Source: Bacteroidales bacterium (GTDB taxonomy: Bacteria; Bacteroidota; Bacteroidia; Bacteroidales; Tenuifilaceae). From it: a DNA stretch of 33,261 nucleotides. The DNA is taken from positions 1-33,261 of the forward strand of contig RPRQ01000053.1 of NCBI GenBank assembly GCA_003818205.1, given 5' to 3'. Made by a program: the position numbers and the translations under genes. Below, piece by piece: positions 15,878 to 24,344 of the stretch (within the stretch, counting starts at the first letter, position 1; every line of letters starts with the position of its first letter). The notes under the pieces were generated by a model. That model worked only from the letters and a program-made list of their open reading frames with translations. It was not told the DNA's origin and ran no database searches.

Positions 15878-16948
15878 TTAAAAATATTTCTTCTTAAAGT
15901 AAAACGCCACGCTCACCAACCCAATCATCACAGGAACCTCAACCAACGGCCCAATAACCGCAGCAAAAGCTTCGCCTGAATTGATTCCAAAAACTGCGAT
16001 TGCTACTGCGATTGCCAACTCAAAGTTATTGCTTGCTGCGGTAAACGATAAAGTTGTTGATTGCTCGTAGGTTGCTCCTACCCTTTTACTCATAAAGAAT
16101 GAAATAACAAACATCACCACAAAGTAGATAAGTAAAGGGATTGCAATTAGTACAACATCCAACGGAATTTTGACAATATACTCCCCTTTAAGCGAGAACA
16201 TCACTACGATAGTGAATAGCAGTGCGATTAGTGTTAGCGGGCTGATTTTAGGTACAAATTTGGTGTGATACCACGTTTTGTCTTTTACCCTTATAAGTAT
16301 ATATCGTGTTAGGAACCCTGCAATAAAAGGAATTCCAAGATAGATAAAAACGCTTTCAGCAATCTGCCCGATGGTTATGGCCTCAACGCTGCTATTAGTA
16401 GGAATTCCAAACCATCCAGGTAGAACTGCAATAAAGAAGTAGGCATAAACTGAGAAGAATAGAACTTGAAAAATAGAGTTGAAAGCCACCAATCCAGCGG
16501 CATACTGAGTATCGCCCTTAGCCAAATCGTTCCAAACAATAACCATGGCAATGCACCTAGCCAAACCAATCATGATAATCCCATACATGTAGGGAAGGTT
16601 GGCATTATTCTCGCCAGGAAAAAGTTTGAATAGTGCTATAGCAAGAAAAAACATCAAAACAGGGCCAATAACCCAGTTCTGAATTAAGGATAAGCCTAAA
16701 ACCTTTGTGTTTCTAAAAACATCTCCTAGCTCCTCGTATTTTACCTTAGCAAGAGGTGGATACATCATTACTATGAGACCAATTGCTATTGGGATGTTTG
16801 TTGTGCTTTCGGGTGATGACTTGAGCGATTCCCAAAAATCAACTATTGCAGGAAAAAAGTAACCCGATAAAACGCCGATTGCCATTGCGGTAAATATCCA
16901 CAGGGTCAAATATCGGTCTAAGAAGTTAAGTCGTTTGTTTGAAGGCAT
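15878..16948 (-). CDS. acr3: ACR3 family arsenite efflux permease
   Basis: Exports arsenite, As(III), across the inner membrane. The 356-residue protein has about ten hydrophobic segments and the ACR3 signatures: [20 protein letters not shown] at the start, [32 protein letters not shown], and [13 protein letters not shown] with the conserved cysteine (C132) needed for arsenite transport. [20 protein letters not shown] is near the C terminus. It is the last gene of the ars operon; an 84-base gap carrying a 12-bp hairpin separates it from arsM. This is ACR3, not the unrelated ArsB antiporter, though ars operons sometimes label it arsB. Confidence 0.95.
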
Positions 16949-17033: not shown

Positions 17034-17861
17034 TTAATTGACAGCTTTTATAGCCGACACAGTAATACTAAATATCCCTAATTCACCTTTTTCAAATCGT
17101 GTAATATCCTCGTTTTCCATATATCTAGAAAGTATTTCTTTGGGAACTGAAATCACTTTTTGTTTATGAATAGTGACTTTACCAAAGCCCTGATTCTTGA
17201 TAATATCGAGATATTCATCTATATCGATGGCACCAGAAACACAACCAGCATACATTTCAGCATCTTGGCGAAGATTTTCAGGTAAAACCCCCTTGATTAC
17301 AACATCAGAGACACAAAAATGTCCTCCCTTTTTAAGAACCCTCATCATTTGCTTAAAGGCTTTGTTTTTATCAGGAACTAGATTTAATACACAGTTCGAA
17401 ACGATGACATCAAACTGTTCGTTATCCAATGGCATTTCCTCAATATCTCCTTTTATAAAGTTAACATTGGTAAATCCTAGCTTATTATTGTTCTCGATTG
17501 CTTTGGTTATCATCGCATCGGTAAAATCAAGCCCAGTTACCTTTCCTGTATCACCCACTATTGCACGAGCAACAAAGCAATCGTTACCAGCACCAGAGCC
17601 AAGATCTAAAACGCTATCGCCAACCTTAATTCCGGCATATTCAGTTGGAATTCCACATCCTAAGCTTAAGTCGGCATCAGGATTGTAACCCTTAAGCGAG
17701 TCATAATTCTCGCTAAAGATGGTATAGGTTGAATCGCCACAACAACTGCTTGCTCCGCAGCACGACGAGGCATTCTGATTTTTACTTTGATTGGCTATTA
17801 AGCTGTATTTCTGTTTTACAACCTCTTTAATGTTTTTTTTATCCGCAGCAGCTGCATCCAT
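17034..17861 (-). CDS. arsM: Arsenite S-adenosylmethionine methyltransferase ArsM
   Basis: Methylates As(III) with SAM to mono-, di- and trimethyl forms. The 275 residues carry a class I methyltransferase fold (VLDLGSGAGNDCFVARAIVG, then TGLDFTDAM). The four cysteines typical of ArsM are present: C69 in GCGIPTE, C95 in GNDCF, C157 in SNCVLNLVP and C207 in YAGCVSGA. The N terminus adds a SSCC-G-ASSCC cluster (C34, C35, C40, C41) that could hold extra arsenite. The start overlaps the end of arsC by 23 bases, indicating translational coupling, and the overlap encodes the CSCCG tail of ArsC in the other frame. Methylarsenite produced here is the kind of compound the second metalloid block could export. 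Confidence 0.95.
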   Translation of the reverse strand: MDAAAADKKNIKEVVKQKYSLIANQSKNQNASSCCGASSCCGDSTYTIFSENYDSLKGYNPDADLSLGCGIPTEYAGIKVGDSVLDLGSGAGNDCFVARAIVGDTGKVTGLDFTDAMITKAIENNNKLGFTNVNFIKGDIEEMPLDNEQFDVIVSNCVLNLVPDKNKAFKQMMRVLKKGGHFCVSDVVIKGVLPENLRQDAEMYAGCVSGAIDIDEYLDIIKNQGFGKVTIHKQKVISVPKEILSRYMENEDITRFEKGELGIFSITVSAIKAVN

Positions 17862-18282
17862 GTTTTCCTAGTATTTGACTGTTATAAAATGATTTAAATC
17901 CTTCGTTAATCTCATCCCTAACCCTTCGGAACTCATTCAGAATTTCCTCTTCAGTTCCTGTGGCTTCGGCGGGGTCTTCGTAACCTAGATGCCAACGATG
18001 TTTCACCTTTCCAATAAATGCAGGGCAGGTTTCGTTGGCTCCTCCGCAAACGGTTATTACGTAATCCCACTCCTCGTTAAGATATTTGCTAACGTTGGTT
18101 GGGTTTTGCTTACTGATATCTATCCCAACCTCGCTCATTACCTGAATTGCATACCGATTAACTCGGTATGCAGGTTCTGTTCCAGCCGAAAACACCTTTA
18201 AGCTTTTATCGTACGATTGTAAGAAGGCTTGAGCCATTTGACTTCGGCAGCTATTGCCTGTACAAAGAATTAGAACCTTCAT
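17839..18282 (-). CDS. arsC: Arsenate reductase ArsC, low-molecular-weight phosphatase type
   Basis: Reduces arsenate to arsenite using a cysteine relay and thioredoxin. From the ATG at 18282 it has 147 residues. The P-loop CTGNSCR (C7 to R13) and the cysteine pair C79/C86 in VITVCGGANETCPAF match the C10-C82-C89 relay of staphylococcal ArsC, and HLGYEDPAEATG carries the conserved aspartate-proline. The open frame extends 24 codons upstream (to 18354), but that extension is translated from the GGAATGATGG repeat and does not resemble ArsC, so the ATG at 18282 is chosen. The C-terminal tail GCSCCG is an added cysteine-rich patch. Confidence 0.95.
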   Translation of the reverse strand: MKVLILCTGNSCRSQMAQAFLQSYDKSLKVFSAGTEPAYRVNRYAIQVMSEVGIDISKQNPTNVSKYLNEEWDYVITVCGGANETCPAFIGKVKHRWHLGYEDPAEATGTEEEILNEFRRVRDEINEGFKSFYNSQILGKHGCSCCG

Positions 18283-18308
18283 GTTACTATTTTTTTCGTT
18301 ATTTATTA

Positions 18309-18376
18309 TTGGAATGATGGAAAGTTGGAATAATGGGCCGTTTAGGTCTTCCAATGTTCCATTATTCCATTATTCC
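18309..18376. repeat. GGAATGATGG/CCATTATTCC inverted repeat inside the ars operon
   Basis: GGAATGATGG and TTGGAATAATGG on the left face CCATTATTCCATTATTCC on the right. The repeat sits between the rhodanese-like gene and arsC, overlapping the last codons of the former. A related element lies at 21718-21851. Confidence 0.6.
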
Positions 18377-18801
18377 TTTGCTTTCAATTTATTCCTTGGT
18401 TTTAGCTGGCACATGCATGAGCCATCCAGCTGCTCCTTAAAATCTGTTTCAAGGGGTAATCCATCCCGTTCCCATTCAACAATACCTCCAGCAAGGTTTG
18501 TTATATTCGTGTACCCCTTTTCAATCATTAGTATCATTGCTTCGTGACTTCTAAGTCCAGCAGAATCTGCAATGATTAACGGTATATCAAAAGGTAGTTC
18601 GTTTAATCGAGCATCAAGCGAGCTAAGTGGGATATATGCTATTAAAGGAGCTTTAAAACGCTTGTAACCTGTCAAATAATCCTCCCTAACATCCACGATT
18701 ACGGCTTCACAATTTACAGCTTCGAAATATGCATCCCTTGGTGTTAGATTTAAAAATCCACCACTGAGAAAACATTTTCCTGAAAACAACTCTCCTTTCA
18801 T
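18370..18801 (-). CDS. Rhodanese-like domain protein, catalytic cysteine missing
   Basis: A 143-residue single rhodanese domain in the ars operon, between arsR and arsC. The fold markers are LTPRDAYFEAVNCEAVIVDV (CDC25/rhodanese start), the active-loop region LIIADSAGLRSHEAMILMIE and LAGGIVEWERDGLPLE. The position of the sulfur-carrying cysteine in the CxxGxRS loop appears to be aspartate (ADSAGLRS), so ordinary sulfurtransferase activity is doubtful. A C-terminal CMC (GSCMCQLK) and C10 could bind trivalent arsenic instead. Rhodanese-like proteins occur in other ars operons, but this one may act as a binding or regulatory protein; that part is inference. Confidence 0.85.
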   Translation of the reverse strand: MKGELFSGKCFLSGGFLNLTPRDAYFEAVNCEAVIVDVREDYLTGYKRFKAPLIAYIPLSSLDARLNELPFDIPLIIADSAGLRSHEAMILMIEKGYTNITNLAGGIVEWERDGLPLETDFKEQLDGSCMCQLKPRNKLKAKE

Positions 18802-18831: not shown

Positions 18832-19173
18832 CTATCGATGTGTTTTGGTATCACAATTTATCTCAGCAGCTTTTATCGACTCAAAGAAGCTGTCAAATTT
18901 CTGTAGGTAACCTTCAATTGAAGAACAGCACAAGCAGTAGTTGACCTTTAACCCATCAATTTCACCATGAATTAGCCCAAGTGCTTTAAGTTCTTTAAGA
19001 TGTTGATAAACCGTTGTTCGGCTTAATGGAAGGAAATCTGAAATGTCTCCAGATATACAGGTTTTAGTTTCAGCAAGGTATTTTAGTATTGCCAACCTTG
19101 CAGGATGCGATAACGCTTTCGCAAATTGTGAAAGTTCTTTCAGGTCGGCATTAAGCACTTCTGTTTTGGTCAT
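18832..19173 (-). CDS. arsR: ArsR family metalloregulator (ArsR1)
   Basis: A 113-residue winged-helix repressor of the ArsR/SmtB family. ALSHPARLAILKYLAE leads into the helix-turn-helix ISDFLPLSRTTVYQHLKELK, followed by the wing GEIDGLKVNYCL. The classic ELCVCDL sensor motif is absent. Cysteines sit at C39 (TCISGD, next to the recognition region) and at C80, C82, C83 (NYCLCC), with C107 near the C terminus, so the arsenite site is probably of an alternative type. A palindrome at 19188-19207 lies 15 bases before the start, fitting autoregulation of the downstream rhodanese-arsC-arsM-acr3 genes. Confidence 0.93.
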   Translation of the reverse strand: MTKTEVLNADLKELSQFAKALSHPARLAILKYLAETKTCISGDISDFLPLSRTTVYQHLKELKALGLIHGEIDGLKVNYCLCCSSIEGYLQKFDSFFESIKAAEINCDTKTHR

Positions 19174-19187
19174 AGTTACTTTTTGTT

Positions 19188-19207
19188 ATGTCGTAAATAT
19201 ACTACAT
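19188..19207. promoter_or_regulatory. Predicted ArsR1 operator upstream of arsR
   Basis: ATGTCGTA, AATA, TACTACAT: two eight-base half-sites with one mismatch. On the minus strand the sequence contains TATATTTA, a near match to the -7 element, so repressor binding would cover the promoter. Confidence 0.65.
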
Positions 19208-19232
19208 ATTTTGATAAAAAAACATCCTTCAT

Positions 19233-19373
19233 TTAGTATAGATGAGAAAAATCCATGTAAGGGCCAAGGAGTTTCATTATAATTAGCATTATTGTACCTG
19301 AGATTATGAAAAAGATTATATCTTCCCAGTTCTCTTTCAGGATTTCTTTGAGATCTCTAATTGTTGTTTTCAT
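19233..19373 (-). CDS. Predicted 46-residue single-pass membrane peptide in front of arsR
   Basis: A small open frame starting MKTTIRDLKEILKENWEDII and ending with YMDFSHLY. The first 18 residues are charged and probably helical. They are followed by a single hydrophobic stretch (IIFFIISGTIMLIIM) and a short tail. It starts 20 bases downstream of a perfect 22-bp palindrome of the same type as the arsR operator. It lies 59 bases ahead of arsR on the same strand. Operator control and a clean frame support a real gene. I do not recognise the family; a role in arsenic transport or membrane sensing is only inferred from its position. Confidence 0.6.
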   Translation of the reverse strand: MKTTIRDLKEILKENWEDIIFFIISGTIMLIIMKLLGPYMDFSHLY

Positions 19374-19381
19374 AACTTTAT

Positions 19382-19414
19382 GACATTTAGTTAATGTCGT
19401 AATATTACGACATT
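19382..19414. promoter_or_regulatory. Perfect ArsR-type palindrome plus a third half-site
   Basis: The core ATGTCGTAATATTACGACAT is a perfect palindrome that extends by one base each side (19393-19414). A further half-site GACATT (19382-19387) faces the left arm, AATGTC, across five bases. It has the same half-site as the arsR operator and lies just upstream of the 46-residue ORF. Confidence 0.65.
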
Positions 19415-19631
19415 ATTTGCAAAAACAATACTTTTCGTTGTTAAGTTTAGGTTAATTCTTAAAATTTTGAAAAAATGAGGGAGGAAATCCCACAAAGCTA
19501 GTTCTCTTTTAGTATCAGGTTTTAATGAAGCTCCTTGCCGCAAGCGGTCGAGGTATCTTCAAGGAACTTATTTTATATTCGCCAAAAGTGGCGGGGAATT
19601 TAACCCATTAGATCCTTCGACAAGCTCAGGA
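19415..19631. repeat. Gene-free stretch with two palindromic repeat pieces
   Basis: No gene is visible between the palindrome and the DUF190 remnant. Around 19530-19570 there is GCTCCTTGCCGCAAGCGG followed by TCGAGGTATCTTCAAGGAAC, with the inverted core CCGCAAGCGG. At about 19611-19632 is GATCCTTCGACAAGCTCAGG followed by ATC, an inverted repeat (GATCCT/AGGATC) of a kind found dispersed in many genomes. Together with the next hairpin, the region looks like an accumulation site for small repeats. Confidence 0.5.
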
Positions 19632-19680
19632 TCAGTTCGACTAGATAATTTTGCTTCTCAAAATTATCTAGTCGAACTGA
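19632..19680. repeat. Perfect 22-bp hairpin next to the DUF190 remnant
   Basis: Two perfectly complementary 22-base arms (19632-19653 and 19659-19680, outer end TCAGTTCGACTAG) with a five-base loop CTTCT. It starts ten bases after the DUF190 stop in minus orientation. It could end that transcript, but there is no T-run, and its perfection suggests a recently acquired or maintained repeat. Confidence 0.75.
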
Positions 19681-19689
19681 TTAAACTCA

Positions 19690-20042
19690 TTATTGCTGCT
19701 TTTTTGTTCCTTTTTTATGAAGAATAATAGTGGCTTTCTCAACGGTAATCATGCAACCCTTATTAATGTTATCAAAGATTGGAAGAATAATCTCAATAAA
19801 CTTTTCAATCTTTTCCGACTCATCTAGAATTTCAACAACCAAAGGGACTTTCTCGGTTATCTCCCAATTGGTTGGAGAGTAAACTGCGCTGCTCGAACCA
19901 AAACCCATAATTCCCCTTAGAACAGTTGCTCCAGCAATACTGTTCTGCTTTGCAGCAAATACAATAACTTCGTATAGGGGCTCATGTTTATACTTATCGG
20001 TTGAGCTGATAATTTCCTTAACAGTTTGGCTTCGCCTTTCAA
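19690..20042 (-). pseudogene. DUF190 family protein gene, frameshifted
   Basis: The intact part (19690-19908 and upstream in frame) encodes KYKHEPLYEVIV, then AGATVLRGIMGFGSSSAVYS and VPLVVEILDESEKIEKFIEI, the DUF190 pattern. Upstream, the expected N terminus ELKGEAKLLR is present but in another frame; joining them needs one extra base near 20013 (in AAATTATC). No ATG precedes it: the nearest usable codon is TTG at 20042, and GTT sits where ATG would be expected. With one base restored the product is about 117 residues. DUF190 genes often accompany crcB, as here (nine bases from its stop). It is either a decayed gene or carries an assembly error. Confidence 0.7.
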
Positions 20043-20050
20043 TTCAACGG

Positions 20051-20428
20051 TTAAAAGATTTTTGTGACAAGATTTCCAATATAAGTAACCATTAACCCTA
20101 AGAATACGCTAAGGCTAGTATAAAGAGCAAATTAAAAAGAAGTTGCCATCTCTTAGTAGCGAAAGGTTTTGGTTGGCAAAGGTTGAAAAAGTAGTAAAAC
20201 CCCGCAAAATACTACGATAAGGAACATCCGCCAATCGGAATTCATGATATCCCCTTTCTCCGACAAACCAAAGAAAACTCCGATTAGGAAACATCCTAAA
20301 ACATTCACTAAAAAAGTCCCGTAAGGAAACGCTGATAAAATATGGTTTTGAATATACCGAGATGCTAGGAACCGTGAAACTGTCCCTAAAAAACCTCCTG
20401 CACCAACTATAAGAATCAATCGAAACAT
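20051..20428 (-). pseudogene. crcB: Fluoride channel CrcB/FluC gene with two compensating frameshifts
   Basis: CrcB proteins are small dimeric fluoride channels. The ATG frame gives MFRLILIVGAGGFLGTVSRF through FLIVVFCG, then leaves the family. The next segment, GFTTFSTFANQNLSLLRDGN, is in a second frame, and FALYTSLSVFLGLMVTYIGN with LVTKIF and a stop returns to the first frame. The shifts fall at a run of four G (about 20200; one base missing from the expected GG-NGGT) and in TTTTTAA (about 20125; one base extra). Restored, the product is about 125 residues, the normal length. Every conserved block survives, so decay is recent or the indels are sequencing errors. Confidence 0.8.
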
Positions 20429-20526
20429 ATTTTAAGTACTTAGAGTGCACTTGAGTTCTTCAAGTGCCTAAAGTTAAAGAAAAAACAATCGAAATTTTAT
20501 TCTCCTTAAGGTACTTTAGACACTTC
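20429..20526. repeat. AGTGCCTAAAGT-type repeats between arsR2 and crcB
   Basis: On the minus strand, AGTGTCTAAAGT and ACTTTAGGCACT form an 11-of-12 inverted repeat, and GCACTTGA/TCAAGTGC forms a second, perfect hairpin. Direct copies of AAGTGNNNTAAGTAC-like units are also present. I see no fluoride riboswitch in this leader. Confidence 0.45.
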
Positions 20527-20877
20527 TCACTTCCTACAACCTCCATCAGGACAAGCAATTTTTTTGGCCGAAAGTTCTCTAATTGTCTTCAACAATGTAT
20601 GATACTGTAGATTTAGCTCATTCATTGCCTCATCATTTAGTGAGTAGCGCTGACAAAGCCCATCGGGCGTAGCAACTAAAATCCCTGCCTCCTTCAGTTT
20701 AGCCAAATGCTGCGAAACCGTTGACTTGCTTAACGGTAAACGCTCCGATATGCTACCTGCAGGACAACCGCTGTACTTGGCCAAGTGCAAAATAATTTGC
20801 AATCGTGCTGGATGCGAAAGGGCATCCAGCATCGGTGCAAGTTTTAGTGATATATCTTGGTATTCTAATGTTTCCAT
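20527..20877 (-). CDS. ArsR family metalloregulator (ArsR2)
   Basis: A 116-residue winged-helix regulator. ALSHPARLQIILHLAKYSGC is followed by the helix-turn-helix ISERLPLSKSTVSQHLAKLK and the wing ATPDGLCQRYSL. Cysteines C38 (GCPAGS), C75 (GLCQRY), C109 and C114 (ACPDGGC at the C terminus) are candidate metalloid ligands; the ELCVCDL motif is absent. It differs from ArsR1 in the recognition helix (SKSTVSQH against SRTTVYQH), consistent with a different operator. It starts directly after the stop of the ProC-like gene, so both are on one transcript, preceded by a TTCGTA-type site at 21701-21717. Confidence 0.92.
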   Translation of the reverse strand: METLEYQDISLKLAPMLDALSHPARLQIILHLAKYSGCPAGSISERLPLSKSTVSQHLAKLKEAGILVATPDGLCQRYSLNDEAMNELNLQYHTLLKTIRELSAKKIACPDGGCRK

Positions 20878-21657
20878 TTATGGTTTAATTTTTTGGAAAA
20901 GCCCATTCAGCTTCTCGTCGTACATTTTAAGAATTTCCGCTTCGTGCTCGCCGATTGGTTTTACTGGAATAAGGTCAATAACTCCAACCTTATCAAGTCC
21001 GCTATTGAACATGGTTTCGGTTGTTGCACTAAGCATATTCTTAACCGCATCAACAGCCTCTTGGTCATCCATTCCGAAACTTTTAGCCAGTTCAATCAGT
21101 TTATAGTACTGAAACCAGAGATAGGTTGGACCCATAGCAACTATCATGGCATATCCTTCAAGCTTGTTTTCTGCAACTTCAAGCGTATGTCCAAAATTTT
21201 CAAATAAATCCATGAGATGCTTTTTTGTATCGTTTTCTATGGATTTGGAAAATACAGCAGGGTTGTACCCTTTACCGATAATTGATGATGCTAATGGAAT
21301 AAATCGAACAATCCGATTGAAACCACCAAGCAGTGCGCTCATCTTCTCTAAAGTAAATTTCGGAGCAAGCGAGATAAGTGTTGAGTTTGGGTTGATTGTT
21401 GCTTTCGCTTTTTCAAGCGATTCAGCAATCATAGGTGGATGCACTGCCAGAAAAATATAGTCGGCATTTAGAATGCTATCGCTTAGGCTGGTTTCCGTTT
21501 TGATTTCAGGGAAAGCAATAGATAATGCCTTAAGCACATCAGGATTTGTATCCATTACAGATACTAGCTGAAAACTTATCTTTTTACTTTTTAATGCGGT
21601 AAGGAAAATCTTGGTAATCCTACCACCACCGATAAAGGAGATTTTTCGTGTTTCCAT
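20878..21657 (-). CDS. Pyrroline-5-carboxylate reductase-like (ProC family) dehydrogenase
   Basis: A 259-residue NAD(P)-dependent dehydrogenase resembling ProC. The Rossmann start is ISFIGGGRITKIFLTALK, where the usual second glycine pattern GxGxMA is altered to GGGRIT. VMDTNPDVLKAL, ADYIFLAVHPPMI and a helical C-terminal dimerisation region (EGYAMIVAMGPTYLWFQYYK) follow. The terminal dimerisation motif of true ProC (DxVxSPGGTT) is replaced by GVIDLIPVKPIGEHEAEILK, so the substrate is probably not pyrroline-5-carboxylate. It is directly followed by arsR2, with an operator-like site upstream. An enzyme of thiol, amino-acid or arsenical metabolism is possible; its function is not known from sequence. 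Confidence 0.75.
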   Translation of the reverse strand: METRKISFIGGGRITKIFLTALKSKKISFQLVSVMDTNPDVLKALSIAFPEIKTETSLSDSILNADYIFLAVHPPMIAESLEKAKATINPNSTLISLAPKFTLEKMSALLGGFNRIVRFIPLASSIIGKGYNPAVFSKSIENDTKKHLMDLFENFGHTLEVAENKLEGYAMIVAMGPTYLWFQYYKLIELAKSFGMDDQEAVDAVKNMLSATTETMFNSGLDKVGVIDLIPVKPIGEHEAEILKMYDEKLNGLFQKIKP

Positions 21658-21700
21658 GATTGTCTGCTTTTAAGTTTGAGTTTAAATAAAATCTAGTTTA

Positions 21701-21717
21701 TTCGTAATAATATTGAA
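21701..21717. promoter_or_regulatory. Predicted ArsR2 operator before the ProC-like gene
   Basis: TTCGTA, ATAA, TATTGAA: an imperfect copy of the TTCGTA-N4-TACGAA site at 24321-24336, sharing its left arm and spacer exactly. On the minus strand a near -7 match (TAGATTTT) lies just downstream. Confidence 0.5.
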
Positions 21718-21851
21718 TTGGAATGCTGGAATATTGGAAGAATGGGAAAAAACGATAACAATTTTCCAATCGAATAACTTATCTCTTCCAACCTTTCATG
21801 CCGACCCTTTAAGCTGGCATTATTCCACCTTTCCATCATTCCATCATTCCT
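21718..21851. repeat. GGAAT/ATTCC repeat cluster
   Basis: TTGGAATGCTGGAATATTGG at the left faces CCATCATTCCATCATTCC at the right, with a possible hairpin between. It is related to 18309-18376 and fills the gap between the permease stop and the ProC operator. No gene is seen. Confidence 0.5.
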
Positions 21852-21854
21852 TTC

Positions 21855-22877
21855 TCAGAATATCCAATTAAACAGAAATCCAACAATCATTATTCCTGAG
21901 CCCACAATGGCGATAAATGTGAAAATCAAAGGAAGTTTTAAAACCTTTCTAAGGATAATCATTTCGGGCAGGGAAAGACCAATCACTGACATCATAAATG
22001 CCAACGCCGTTCCCAGTGATGCTCCCTTCTCAATTAAAACAGATACAATCGGGATAATCCCTGCAGCGTTTGAATATAGCGGAATACCTATCAATACCGA
22101 GAGAGGAACGCTATACCAAGCAGATTTTCCCATAAGTGAGGCCATAAAATCTTGGGGAACATAACCATGAGCACCTGCGCCAACGGCAATACCCAATGCA
22201 ACGTAAATCCAAACTTTTCCAACTATCTCTTTTACAGCCTCAAAGCCTAATTTAAAACGCCCTATAAAAGTCAATTTCTCCTCTTCTATTCCTGTATCTC
22301 CGAATTTTGCTTTGTAAACCCAATCCTCAACCCATTTTTCGAGTTTTAACCTGCCAATTACCCATCCGGCAGTTATTGCAATGAATAATCCTGTGAGAAC
22401 GTAAATAAGCGCTACTTTCCATCCAAACAATCCAAATAGGAGCACAACTGCAACCTCGTTTATCATCGGGGCTGCAATAAGGAATGAAAAAGTGATTCCT
22501 AGAGGAACTCCTGATTCAACAAATCCTAAGAACAGTGGTATTGCTGAGCATGAACAGAAAGGTGTAACAATTCCAAGCAGTGCAGCCATTACATTTCCAG
22601 TGAAAGTCTTTTTACCCACCAAAAACTTGCGGGTTCGTTCTGGGGAAAAATAGGAACGAAGAACTCCCACAAAAAAGATAATTAGGGTAAGCAATAGTAA
22701 CACTTTAGGTATTTCGAAGATGAAAAACCAAAGCGCCTCAGTCAGATGCTTTCCCTTTTCCAATCCTAAGACTGAATATACTAACCAATCGGTAACCGAT
22801 TGTAGGTTAAAATATATCAGAAACCAAACGGGTATAAGGGCAATTACTATCCACAAATTTTTACTAATCCTATTCAT
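21855..22877 (-). CDS. ArsP/DUF318 family permease
   Basis: A 340-residue inner-membrane permease of the DUF318 family, whose characterised members include ArsP (efflux of methylarsenite and trivalent aromatic arsenicals) and the SO_0444-type metal exporters. About ten hydrophobic segments are visible. The family signature TPFCSCSAIPLFLGFVESGV (C108, C110) is followed by GITFSFLIAAPMINEVAVVL; the second half has the matching SVLIGIPLYSNAAGIIPIVS. The paired cysteines probably contact the substrate. It is the last gene of the four-gene operon with two thioredoxin-like proteins and a CcdA-like protein, which favours arsenical or soft-metal substrates. Substrate assignment is inference. Confidence 0.85.
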   Translation of the reverse strand: MNRISKNLWIVIALIPVWFLIYFNLQSVTDWLVYSVLGLEKGKHLTEALWFFIFEIPKVLLLLTLIIFFVGVLRSYFSPERTRKFLVGKKTFTGNVMAALLGIVTPFCSCSAIPLFLGFVESGVPLGITFSFLIAAPMINEVAVVLLFGLFGWKVALIYVLTGLFIAITAGWVIGRLKLEKWVEDWVYKAKFGDTGIEEEKLTFIGRFKLGFEAVKEIVGKVWIYVALGIAVGAGAHGYVPQDFMASLMGKSAWYSVPLSVLIGIPLYSNAAGIIPIVSVLIEKGASLGTALAFMMSVIGLSLPEMIILRKVLKLPLIFTFIAIVGSGIMIVGFLFNWIF

Positions 22878-22900
22878 TTTTCGCTTTCCTAATAATGATT

Positions 22901-23605
22901 CTATTTAATAAACTGATAGATGTAATAAATTCCTGCTACAATAAACACAACGGCAATCAGCCGTCGAAACCAAAACTCAAATGTTTTTAGCTTGTTGTAG
23001 AAATTACCTACGCCTGAAACGGTGTATGCTATCAGATATGAAATAATAATTACCGGTAAACCAGTGCCAATGGCAAATACAAAAGGAAGATAAAGTCCTG
23101 ATGGGCTAGAAATGGTCATCGGTATAAGCATCCCAAAGTAAAGCACACCGCTATAAGGGCAAAATGCCAAAGCAAATGCAATACCCATCAGTAATACTCC
23201 CCAAAAACTTCCTTTCTCGGCTTTGCTTCCAATTCTATCGGAAAGATTACTTGTAAATGGAAGTTTAATCTTAATAAAATCGAGCATAAACAACCCAATG
23301 ATAATCAGAATTGGACCAATAATTCTCTCCCCATATTTCTGAAGAAATCCAGCAACCTTAAATTGATTTGCTCCTAAAAAGAAAATAACTCCGATAGCAG
23401 TATAGGTAATCGCTCTCCCAAAGGTATATATCAAACCGCTATAAAAGACCTTTTTCTTGTGTTCTATATCCTTGCTGATAAATGCAATAGCAGTGATATT
23501 GGTAGCAAGCGGACAAGGACTAATTGACGTTAAAATACCCAACAGGAATGCCGAGAGTATTGGTAAATGACTGCTATCGAGCAAATTTTGTATCCAGTCC
23601 ATCAA
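22901..23605 (-). CDS. CcdA/DsbD-like membrane protein, ArsG-like
   Basis: A 234-residue protein of the cytochrome c biogenesis CcdA/DsbD transmembrane family with six or seven helices. The redox cysteines sit in LTSISPCPLATNITAIAFIS (C31) and in AFALAFCPYSGVLYFG, the positions that carry electrons across the membrane in CcdA. Joined head to tail with a CxxC lipoprotein and a CxxC mini-thioredoxin, it fits the ArsE-ArsF-ArsG arrangement described for resistance to aromatic arsenicals, in which ArsG is named as an efflux permease. Either a thiol-electron carrier or an exporter is possible; the intact cysteine pair favours the carrier role. Confidence 0.8.
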   Translation of the reverse strand: MMDWIQNLLDSSHLPILSAFLLGILTSISPCPLATNITAIAFISKDIEHKKKVFYSGLIYTFGRAITYTAIGVIFFLGANQFKVAGFLQKYGERIIGPILIIIGLFMLDFIKIKLPFTSNLSDRIGSKAEKGSFWGVLLMGIAFALAFCPYSGVLYFGMLIPMTISSPSGLYLPFVFAIGTGLPVIIISYLIAYTVSGVGNFYNKLKTFEFWFRRLIAVVFIVAGIYYIYQFIK

Positions 23606-24040
23606 CTATTTCTTTAACCCTTTTTCGATGATATCAGTGATGATAGTCTCAAGTTTTGCAGGTTCGGTTCTTGCATACTTAAAAGCATCTACAGTGATGT
23701 TTGTTACCACACCATTCACATCAATCAATAGTGATGAGCCTGTAATTTGGTATTTCTCTGCAATAGTTTTGTTTTCGTCCTTGTCTATATTAACATCTTT
23801 AAAAACTACCACGCTATTTTCAGCATATTTAGCACTAATCAGGTTCTGAGATACCTCACCCACTTTAATGCAGGTTGGGCAACGTCTGTCGCCATGGAAG
23901 TAAAGAATTTGAATGGATTGACCAATAGCTGAAGAAATTTCCGTTGATTTTTTCTCATCGCCTTTGGCATTGCCATTACTACAACTTCCAAAATTTACCG
24001 ATAATAGGGCAAATGCTACGATTGCAAAATACTTTTTCAT
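23606..24040 (-). CDS. Thioredoxin-like lipoprotein, ArsF-like
   Basis: A 144-residue exported lipoprotein: a signal peptide with lipobox ending FGSC (C20), a polar linker, and a thioredoxin-like domain with YFHGDRRCPTCIKVGEVSQN (C54, C57). It corresponds to the proteins annotated as nitrophenyl compound nitroreductase subunit ArsF. The CPTC pair faces the periplasm and would be reduced by the adjacent CcdA-like protein, whose start is directly next to this gene's stop. TGSSLLIDVNGVV holds the region where thioredoxins have a cis-proline, here apparently absent. The substrate is unknown. Confidence 0.8.
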   Translation of the reverse strand: MKKYFAIVAFALLSVNFGSCSNGNAKGDEKKSTEISSAIGQSIQILYFHGDRRCPTCIKVGEVSQNLISAKYAENSVVVFKDVNIDKDENKTIAEKYQITGSSLLIDVNGVVTNITVDAFKYARTEPAKLETIITDIIEKGLKK

Positions 24041-24054
24041 CCTTTTTATAGTTT

Positions 24055-24288
24055 TTATTTGGTTAGTAATTCTTTCAGTTCGCTCTCGGAGGGTATCCTC
24101 CCGCTCAGAATAACCTTTCCATCTTTAACTAAGCCTGGAGTTCTCATTATTCCGTAGCCCATTATTTTGGTAATATCCTCCTCTTTTGTAACCTCAGCTT
24201 TAAGGTTCAAATCAGCAACCACCTTACGGGTTAACTGCTCTAGGGTTTTGCACTTTGCACAACCTGTACCTAATACAATGATATTCAT
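24055..24288 (-). CDS. Small redox-active disulfide protein (mini-thioredoxin), ArsE-like
   Basis: A 77-residue thioredoxin-fold protein of the redox-active disulfide protein 2 type. MNIIVLGTGCAKCKTLEQL holds the CAKC active site (C10, C13), and GIMRTPGLVKDGKVI the cis-proline loop (TP). No signal peptide, so it is cytoplasmic and would donate electrons to the CcdA-like membrane protein encoded two genes later. First gene of the operon; the promoter and operator lie 33-56 bases upstream. Confidence 0.88.
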   Translation of the reverse strand: MNIIVLGTGCAKCKTLEQLTRKVVADLNLKAEVTKEEDITKIMGYGIMRTPGLVKDGKVILSGRIPSESELKELLTK

Positions 24289-24314
24289 AGTTTTAATTAT
24301 TGTAATTAGTTAAA

Positions 24315-24344
24315 TCGTATTTCGTAATAATACGAACAAAGATA
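24315..24344 (-). promoter_or_regulatory. Promoter and operator of the ArsE-like operon
   Basis: On the minus strand the -7 box TATCTTTG (complement of 24337-24344) matches TAnnTTTG. It is directly followed by the palindrome TTCGTATTATTACGAA (24321-24336; arms TTCGTA/TACGAA, spacer of four). A wider pair TCGTATT/AATACGA overlaps it. A TTG lies 16 bases upstream of the -7 box. A repressor on this site would cover the transcription start. Confidence 0.65.

Follow-up and report, generated by a model that had tools for sequence, protein, structure and literature searches.

Two predicted classes of ArsR operator in an arsenic-resistance island of a Bacteroidales bacterium

When one island carries two ArsR paralogues among two sets of arsenic genes, do both repressors share one operator, or does each read its own? 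The question is raised by contig RPRQ01000053.1 of a Bacteroidales bacterium (Tenuifilaceae; assembly GCA_003818205.1), whose 33,261 bases, here called the window, are a complete contig of a 5.17-Mb genome that is 99% complete. Its minus strand carries arsR1-rhodanese-arsC-arsM-acr3, an open reading frame (ORF) of 46 residues, pieces of a DUF190 and a crcB gene, and arsE-arsF-arsG-arsP-proC-like-arsR2. The answer that we judge to be probable, going by the sequences, is that the island would hold two circuits that respond to metalloids and are separated by how their operators are spelled, ArsR1 reading sites of an ATGT class and a second ArsR, most likely ArsR2, those of a TTCG class. ArsR1 would bind ATGT-CGTA-N4-TACG-ACAT sites before arsR1-rhodanese-arsC-arsM-acr3 and before the small membrane-protein gene that the 46-residue ORF represents, whilst the second ArsR would bind TTCGTA-N4-TACGAA before arsE-arsF-arsG-arsP-proC-arsR2. 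On or directly beside the -7 box of the promoter, either repressor would keep RNA polymerase out until released by As(III) or an organoarsenical.

Operators in the window

The first site of the ATGT class lies before arsR1 at 19188-19207 (minus strand) and reads ATGTCGTAAATATACTACAT, with one mismatch against ATGTCGTA-N4-TACGACAT. Its core sits 30 bp ahead of the arsR1 start codon, the usual position in relatives, and in gene orientation is TATATTTA, a variant -7 box. The second, on the same strand, lies before the 46-residue ORF with its core, TAATATTA, at -36 from the start codon and without the -7 consensus; positions 19394-19413 are mismatch-free to the ATGTCG pattern, and the 22-bp palindrome at 19393-19414 is as perfect a copy as the preliminary description of this DNA had stated. 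With up to three mismatches the ATGTCG pattern is found twice in the window, against 0.06 expected, and at 14 places in the genome (39 for the backwards control); only the two window sites have one mismatch or fewer, the other 12 places all having three.

The TTCG site, at 24321-24336 (minus strand) before arsE, reads TTCGTAATAATACGAA and is the sole exact TTCGTA-N4-TACGAA of the genome. Its offset from arsE is -46, and a matching site stands at -47 in L124, the locus of the nearest relative found. It does touch a -7 promoter box, as had been proposed: TATCTTTG, at 24337-24344 on the minus strand, abuts the operator on its upstream side. Scanned over the whole genome, the ATGTCG pattern in its strictest forms and the exact TTCG pattern are thus confined to the window, but the TTCG pattern with up to two mismatches is common and without enrichment (236 places, backwards control 544). 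The exact core shared by both classes, CGTA-N4-TACG, occurs at 11 places genome-wide (control 59), two of them in the window against about 0.07 expected by length; no ars genes were seen near the other nine when the ORF translations of 1.1-4 kb stretches were read by eye. Four palindromes had been described, with coordinates and sequences that proved correct, and these three of them hold.

Operator arms, ArsR clades and the promoter

For conservation, 247 genomes of the order were searched with ArsR2, ArsR1 and ArsE, and regions of some 4-17 kb surrounding selected matches were studied together with named loci; the resulting 103 sequences, with the window included (930 kb), contain 129 ArsR and 69 arsE-like genes. 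Since the loci were taken from the best matches of these searches, they are no random sample of the order; the three named loci whose ArsR2 is closest come from Bacteroidales assemblies. Operators were called by a strict pattern, CGYA-N4-TRCG at most 220 bp upstream, which is blind to the arms, and by a relaxed site score built to favour three arm classes, which 14 of 645 shuffled upstream regions reach. Strict sites stand before 69 of the 129 ArsR genes and 24 of the 69 arsE-like genes, and the relaxed score calls an operator for 87 of the ArsR genes. The ArsR1-type genes examined mostly have GT or GA beside CG (ATGT or ATGA arms), 21 of the 24 strict arsE sites have TT in both arms (the remaining three being GA/GA, AT/AT and GC/TT), and the ArsR genes adjoining arsE likewise have TT arms. 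In all 16 loci where both kinds of site were called the arms are separate by gene, with GT or GA on at least one side for ArsR1-type genes and TT for arsE/ArsR3. Because differently spelled sites stand before their own gene sets in many relatives, two repressors probably can run separate gene sets.

Arm class follows the ArsR clade and the residues of the recognition helix. The helix [KR]STLS goes with TT arms in 26 of 26 cases (on both sides in 25), RTTVN with GA/GA arms in 10 of 12, and RTTVS and RSTVS with GT on the left arm in 27 of 31 and 5 of 7, respectively. A tree built by a quick method from 94 of the 129 ArsR rows (112 columns), in which 52 of 91 inner branches are open, places 29 of 30 TT-arm rows in one clade together with two AT rows (Shimodaira-Hasegawa-like approximate likelihood-ratio test, SH-aLRT, 99), 11 of 13 GA-arm rows in another with one GT row and one odd-arm row (SH-aLRT 95), and all eight ArsR2 rows in a clade of their own (SH-aLRT 100). 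Left out of it were rows without a called operator (ArsR2 and window rows were kept), L109, and L146_14331, likely a chance site within a coding stretch. Over this tree the six arm labels require 12 changes, against 47 in shuffles. A change from S to N in the helix was considered as repeated evidence for the link and rejected, 11 of the 13 GA rows being in one clade, and five genes (L145, L147, L162, L189 and L192) depart from a strict left-arm S/N rule. The two regulators of the window do have different recognition helices, as had been noted: SRTTVYQHL in ArsR1 (18832-19173, minus strand) and SKSTVSQHL in ArsR2 (20527-20877, minus strand). It had also been proposed that each regulator owns one class of site; on these data the assignment of the ATGTCG class to ArsR1 appears well supported.

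How might such sites act? TAnnTTTG, or its TTTG, is given as the -7 box of Bacteroidota primary-sigma promoters in PMC7366714 and PMC9723704, and the operator cores, read in the direction of the gene, give CG-TAnnTTTR-CG at 51 of the 58 sites with G arms and at 27 of the 40 with TT arms, with three reverse readings in each group. Among the 81 sites with an embedded box, 54 fall between -27 and -36 relative to the start codon, and TTG is most frequent 22-23 bp ahead of the box (20 of 81), which fits a -33 element. Of the 42 TT rows listed, the box is exactly embedded in 18, abuts the operator (at -10 or -11) in 10, the window's included, and does neither in 14. The promoters thus resemble those described for the phylum, with TAnnTTTG in or beside the operator and TTG upstream, and differ from them in that the box is often framed by CG...CG, doubling as operator centre. 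As the operator core is usually the -7 box in gene orientation, binding should occlude the promoter, and repression by promoter occlusion would be the simple reading; a palindromic site overlapping the promoter, as expected for ArsR/SmtB proteins, is at hand at the level of sequence. A sigma-70 scan of the window gave 15 matches against 16.5 in shuffles, that model being uninformative for this phylum.

The reader of the TTCG site

The two classes have CGTA-N4-TACG in common, and Pseudomonas putida ArsR1 and ArsR2 are reported to down-regulate each other's promoters (PMC7994332), so one may ask whether ArsR1 alone reads both classes, one with tighter and the other with looser affinity, whilst ArsR2 senses something else or acts elsewhere. 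We regard this as rather unlikely, given that the arms stay separate by gene in every locus with both kinds called and that arm class tracks ArsR clade. In addition, G080 and G153 are absent among the genomes listed with an ArsR1 match at E 1e-15, yet their arsE promoters keep TTCG-like arms.

In the relatives examined, it is a third ArsR clade beside arsE, the TT clade, that accompanies TTCG arms. A query with one of its members found clear members at 66-71% identity in G097, G040, G089 and G248; with this single query no TT-clade ArsR was found in G000, G080, G153 or G247, to which L124 belongs, and their top matches are ArsR1- or ArsR2-type genes at 35-46%. The arsE promoters of these four ArsR2-bearing genomes nevertheless keep TTCG-type arms, intact at all 12 positions in the window and L124 and at 10 of 12 in G153 (L104) and G080 (L106), so that ArsR2 probably reads the site in these genomes. 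The KST of its helix is also found in part of the TT clade. Of the proposed pairing of regulators and classes, the part that concerns ArsR2 is plausible only, as the TTCG class of the relatives examined goes with the third clade.

Could the TTCG site of the window be instead the relic of a lost TT-clade ArsR, now unregulated or read by another protein of the genome? The one-member query found no such ArsR in this genome, which has two more ArsR-family proteins, and L108 has, upstream of arsE, what by eye appears to be the N-terminal remnant of an arsE-adjacent ArsR. We nonetheless consider this rather unlikely too, since the site is perfect in the window and in L124, two genomes where the TT clade was not found, and since the helices of the two other ArsR-family proteins differ. 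The apparent L108 remnant has its own TTCG-like site, and the genome of L108 encodes a TT-clade ArsR at another place.

Least probable is that all four described palindromes are genuine and that ArsR2 also represses its own promoter through the one at 21701-21717, for which a half TTCG site, ATTCGTAATAATA, about 50 bp before proC could be cited, because this palindrome is mismatched at 3 of 12 positions, which is about what chance gives (18 such matches in the window, 16.5 expected from shuffles), because it borders a repeat present at many places, and because in L124 proC starts 17 bp past arsP. We accordingly rejected 21701-21717 as an operator, and the claim that ArsR2 has a TTCG operator of its own there finds no support. 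The repeat itself is a short dispersed one at 21715-21855, between arsP and proC, and matches many genomic places.

The gene order of L124, site-arsE-F-G-P-proC-arsR2-crcB-DUF190-site-arsR1-rhodanese-arsC-acr3, offers a simpler arrangement. With proC and arsR2 directly after arsP, one arsE site could serve the entire operon, and with arsR2 last in it, ArsR2 could autoregulate via the arsE site alone.

Several observations weigh against two circuits separated by spelling. In the window the arsP-proC gap is 197 bp long and contains the repeat, so a single transcript there is unproven, and the loose core with up to one mismatch, tried as a signal and rejected, is found six times against 5.2 expected. 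Sixty of the 129 ArsR genes have no strict site, some of them not being first in their operon; arsE sites at L196 (GA arms) and L199 (GC/TT) do not fit, the ArsR1-type L145, L153 and L180 have mixed arms, and the relaxed score prefers the three arm classes by design, which the arm-blind strict pattern does not. Within the GA clade the change from S to N appears to have a single origin, so this link counts as one event and can be offered as a hypothesis only. ArsR2 does not group with the [KR]STLSQHL TT clade in the tree, and from its own clade its specificity is unreadable by kinship. TT-clade ArsRs are also present in the ArsR2 loci L105, L107 and L125, and G089 has ArsR2 at the studied locus and a TT-clade ArsR elsewhere. 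The sites of G080 and G153 are degenerate, matching at 10 of 12 positions, 11 and 9 of 1000 shuffles being equally good, and G080, G153 and G247 were covered by single-query searches. Lastly, the two further ArsR-family matches of the own genome (C30:65687 and C45:61007) could in principle read TTCG, although their helices differ and neither has a site of this kind upstream.

Genes of the island, the phosphate link and known systems

All genes of the island are on the minus strand. Downstream of arsR1 come a rhodanese-domain protein (18370-18801), a thioredoxin-type arsenate reductase-like ArsC (17839-18354 as the ORF is listed, its real start being probably internal; TIGR02691 at 129 bits, under the cut-off of 174), the arsenite methyltransferase ArsM (17034-17861, NF008823 above cut-off) and the Acr3 arsenite efflux permease (15878-16948, TIGR00832 above cut-off). 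The other set consists of the thioredoxin-like arsE (24055-24288), an arsF-like lipoprotein (23606-24040, NF040494 above cut-off), the arsG permease (22901-23605, NF040495 above cut-off), an ArsP-type permease (21855-22877, PF03773), a ProC-like NAD(P)-binding protein (20878-21657, under the NCBIfam proC cut-off) and arsR2, the candidate reader of TTCG. Adjoining ArsG and ArsF family matches mark an arsEFG operon.

Both regulators match the ArsR/SmtB family and have a winged helix-turn-helix (HTH) of HTH_5/HTH_20 type; for NCBIfam HTH_metalloreg, with a cut-off of 55, ArsR2 scores 70 and ArsR1 slightly below it at 52.4. By eye, a Cys close to the HTH appears to recur in the alignment rows of both types. 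Relatives of solved structure, by sequence, include YgaV, Rv1994c, PagR, SmtB and NolR for ArsR1 and YgaV, two ArsR, HlyU and NmtR for ArsR2, with a best E of 3e-10.

Between the two sets, the fluoride-type crcB and DUF190 frames (19690-20450) are shorter than those of L124 and apparently broken, by assembly error or decay possibly, and a long inverted repeat (hairpin), read by eye, lies at 19631-19681, 3' of the DUF190 gene. In L107 (7914), L112 (3215), L115 (3750) and L126 (6536) a second TTCG-class site stands right before arsP within the arsE operon, L107 and L126 appearing to be a single contig. In the reverse-complement reading of L135:2533-3391, ArsR1 and ArsC matches share one open frame, a possible ArsR-ArsC fusion.

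The 46-residue ORF (19233-19373), small membrane-protein-like and with no Pfam match up to E 1, is taken to be real and belongs to a family linked to phosphate genes; the idea of a spurious frame was rejected because three homologues of 46-50% identity were found in two of 392 other genomes of the order, two in G333 and one in G394; an alignment search of 395 genomes of the phylum added solely a weaker paralogue in its own genome, about 5 kb from phoU. One homologue, at L226:5284-5424 (G333), heads pstSCA, in the order ArsR-class site (GT/GA arms, -36), ORF, pstS, pstC, pstA, ArsR-class site, arsR1, arsC-type genes, arsM; the GT/GA-armed site is at the same -36 offset as in the window, ahead of the homologue in L225/L226. 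The window, unlike L226, has no pst gene between its two ArsR1-class sites.

At 19439-19456 (minus strand), -83 from this ORF, there is a Pho-box-like 11-bp direct repeat, ATTAACCTAAACTTAACA. All five members of the family have such an 11-bp-spaced repeat, at -81 to -85, and a spacing of 11 scores best among 7 to 21, in the same five sequences from which the consensus was drawn; 9 of 2000 shuffles equal the copy of the window. In the genome the pattern is not enriched, with four places at one mismatch or fewer against three for the backwards control; these lie at the paralogue (a source of the pattern), a PHO4-family transporter, polyphosphate kinase and a gene about 5.6 kb from phoU, the weaker copy of the window lying outside them. 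The genes behind the pattern suggest a Pho box, whilst the counts alone prove nothing. Of the five family copies, only those of the window and L226 have an ArsR-class site, and both also have the Pho-box-like repeat. Binding of ArsR near pst genes is reported for Agrobacterium (PMC7965956), where ArsR1 of A. tumefaciens 5A is placed on two sites between pstS1 and phoB1.

A more daring extension, which we put forward tentatively and would not expect to hold in full, is that a few helix residues (RTTVS, RTTVN, [KR]STLS) might set the two bases flanking CG-TAnnTTTR-CG and so give orthogonal operators within a cell, that ArsR2 might have taken over the TTCG class, and that a small membrane protein of the Pho regulon might have been drawn into the ArsR1 circuit by way of a composite Pho-box/ArsR promoter.

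ArsR operators are already known, and what is new here is the clade-specific arms around the -7 box. The ars1/ars2 system of P. putida, described as a bifan motif (PMC7994332), resembles the island in its two ArsR paralogues, two ars promoters and operators overlapping the promoter core, and differs in that its operators are reported as near-alike with each repressor on both, whereas in the island each class has arms of its own, which vary together with the ArsR clade. The ArsR1-4 stimulon of A. tumefaciens 5A, a Gram-negative outside this phylum, likewise has several ArsR with their own profiles, the account in PMC7965956 giving three MEME motifs of varied degeneracy and no arm code. The arsEFG operon is known from its family models (NF040495, NF040494), the arsG and arsF ones being matched here; in the window it is joined with ArsP, the ProC-like protein and ArsR2. 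Judged by title and beginning of abstract, no paper on ArsR operators of this phylum, or on an operator code for them, appeared in the searches of open papers, a weak absence since subscription papers were mostly outside the scope.

If the two circuits are as proposed, they would link ArsR helix residues to operator arms in a map that can be tested directly and comes with natural contrasts, and would offer candidate orthogonal sensor-operator pairs for Bacteroidota. They would also explain how one genome can hold several arsenic circuits with little cross-talk, and a composite promoter at the 46-residue gene would tie arsenate defence to phosphate control.

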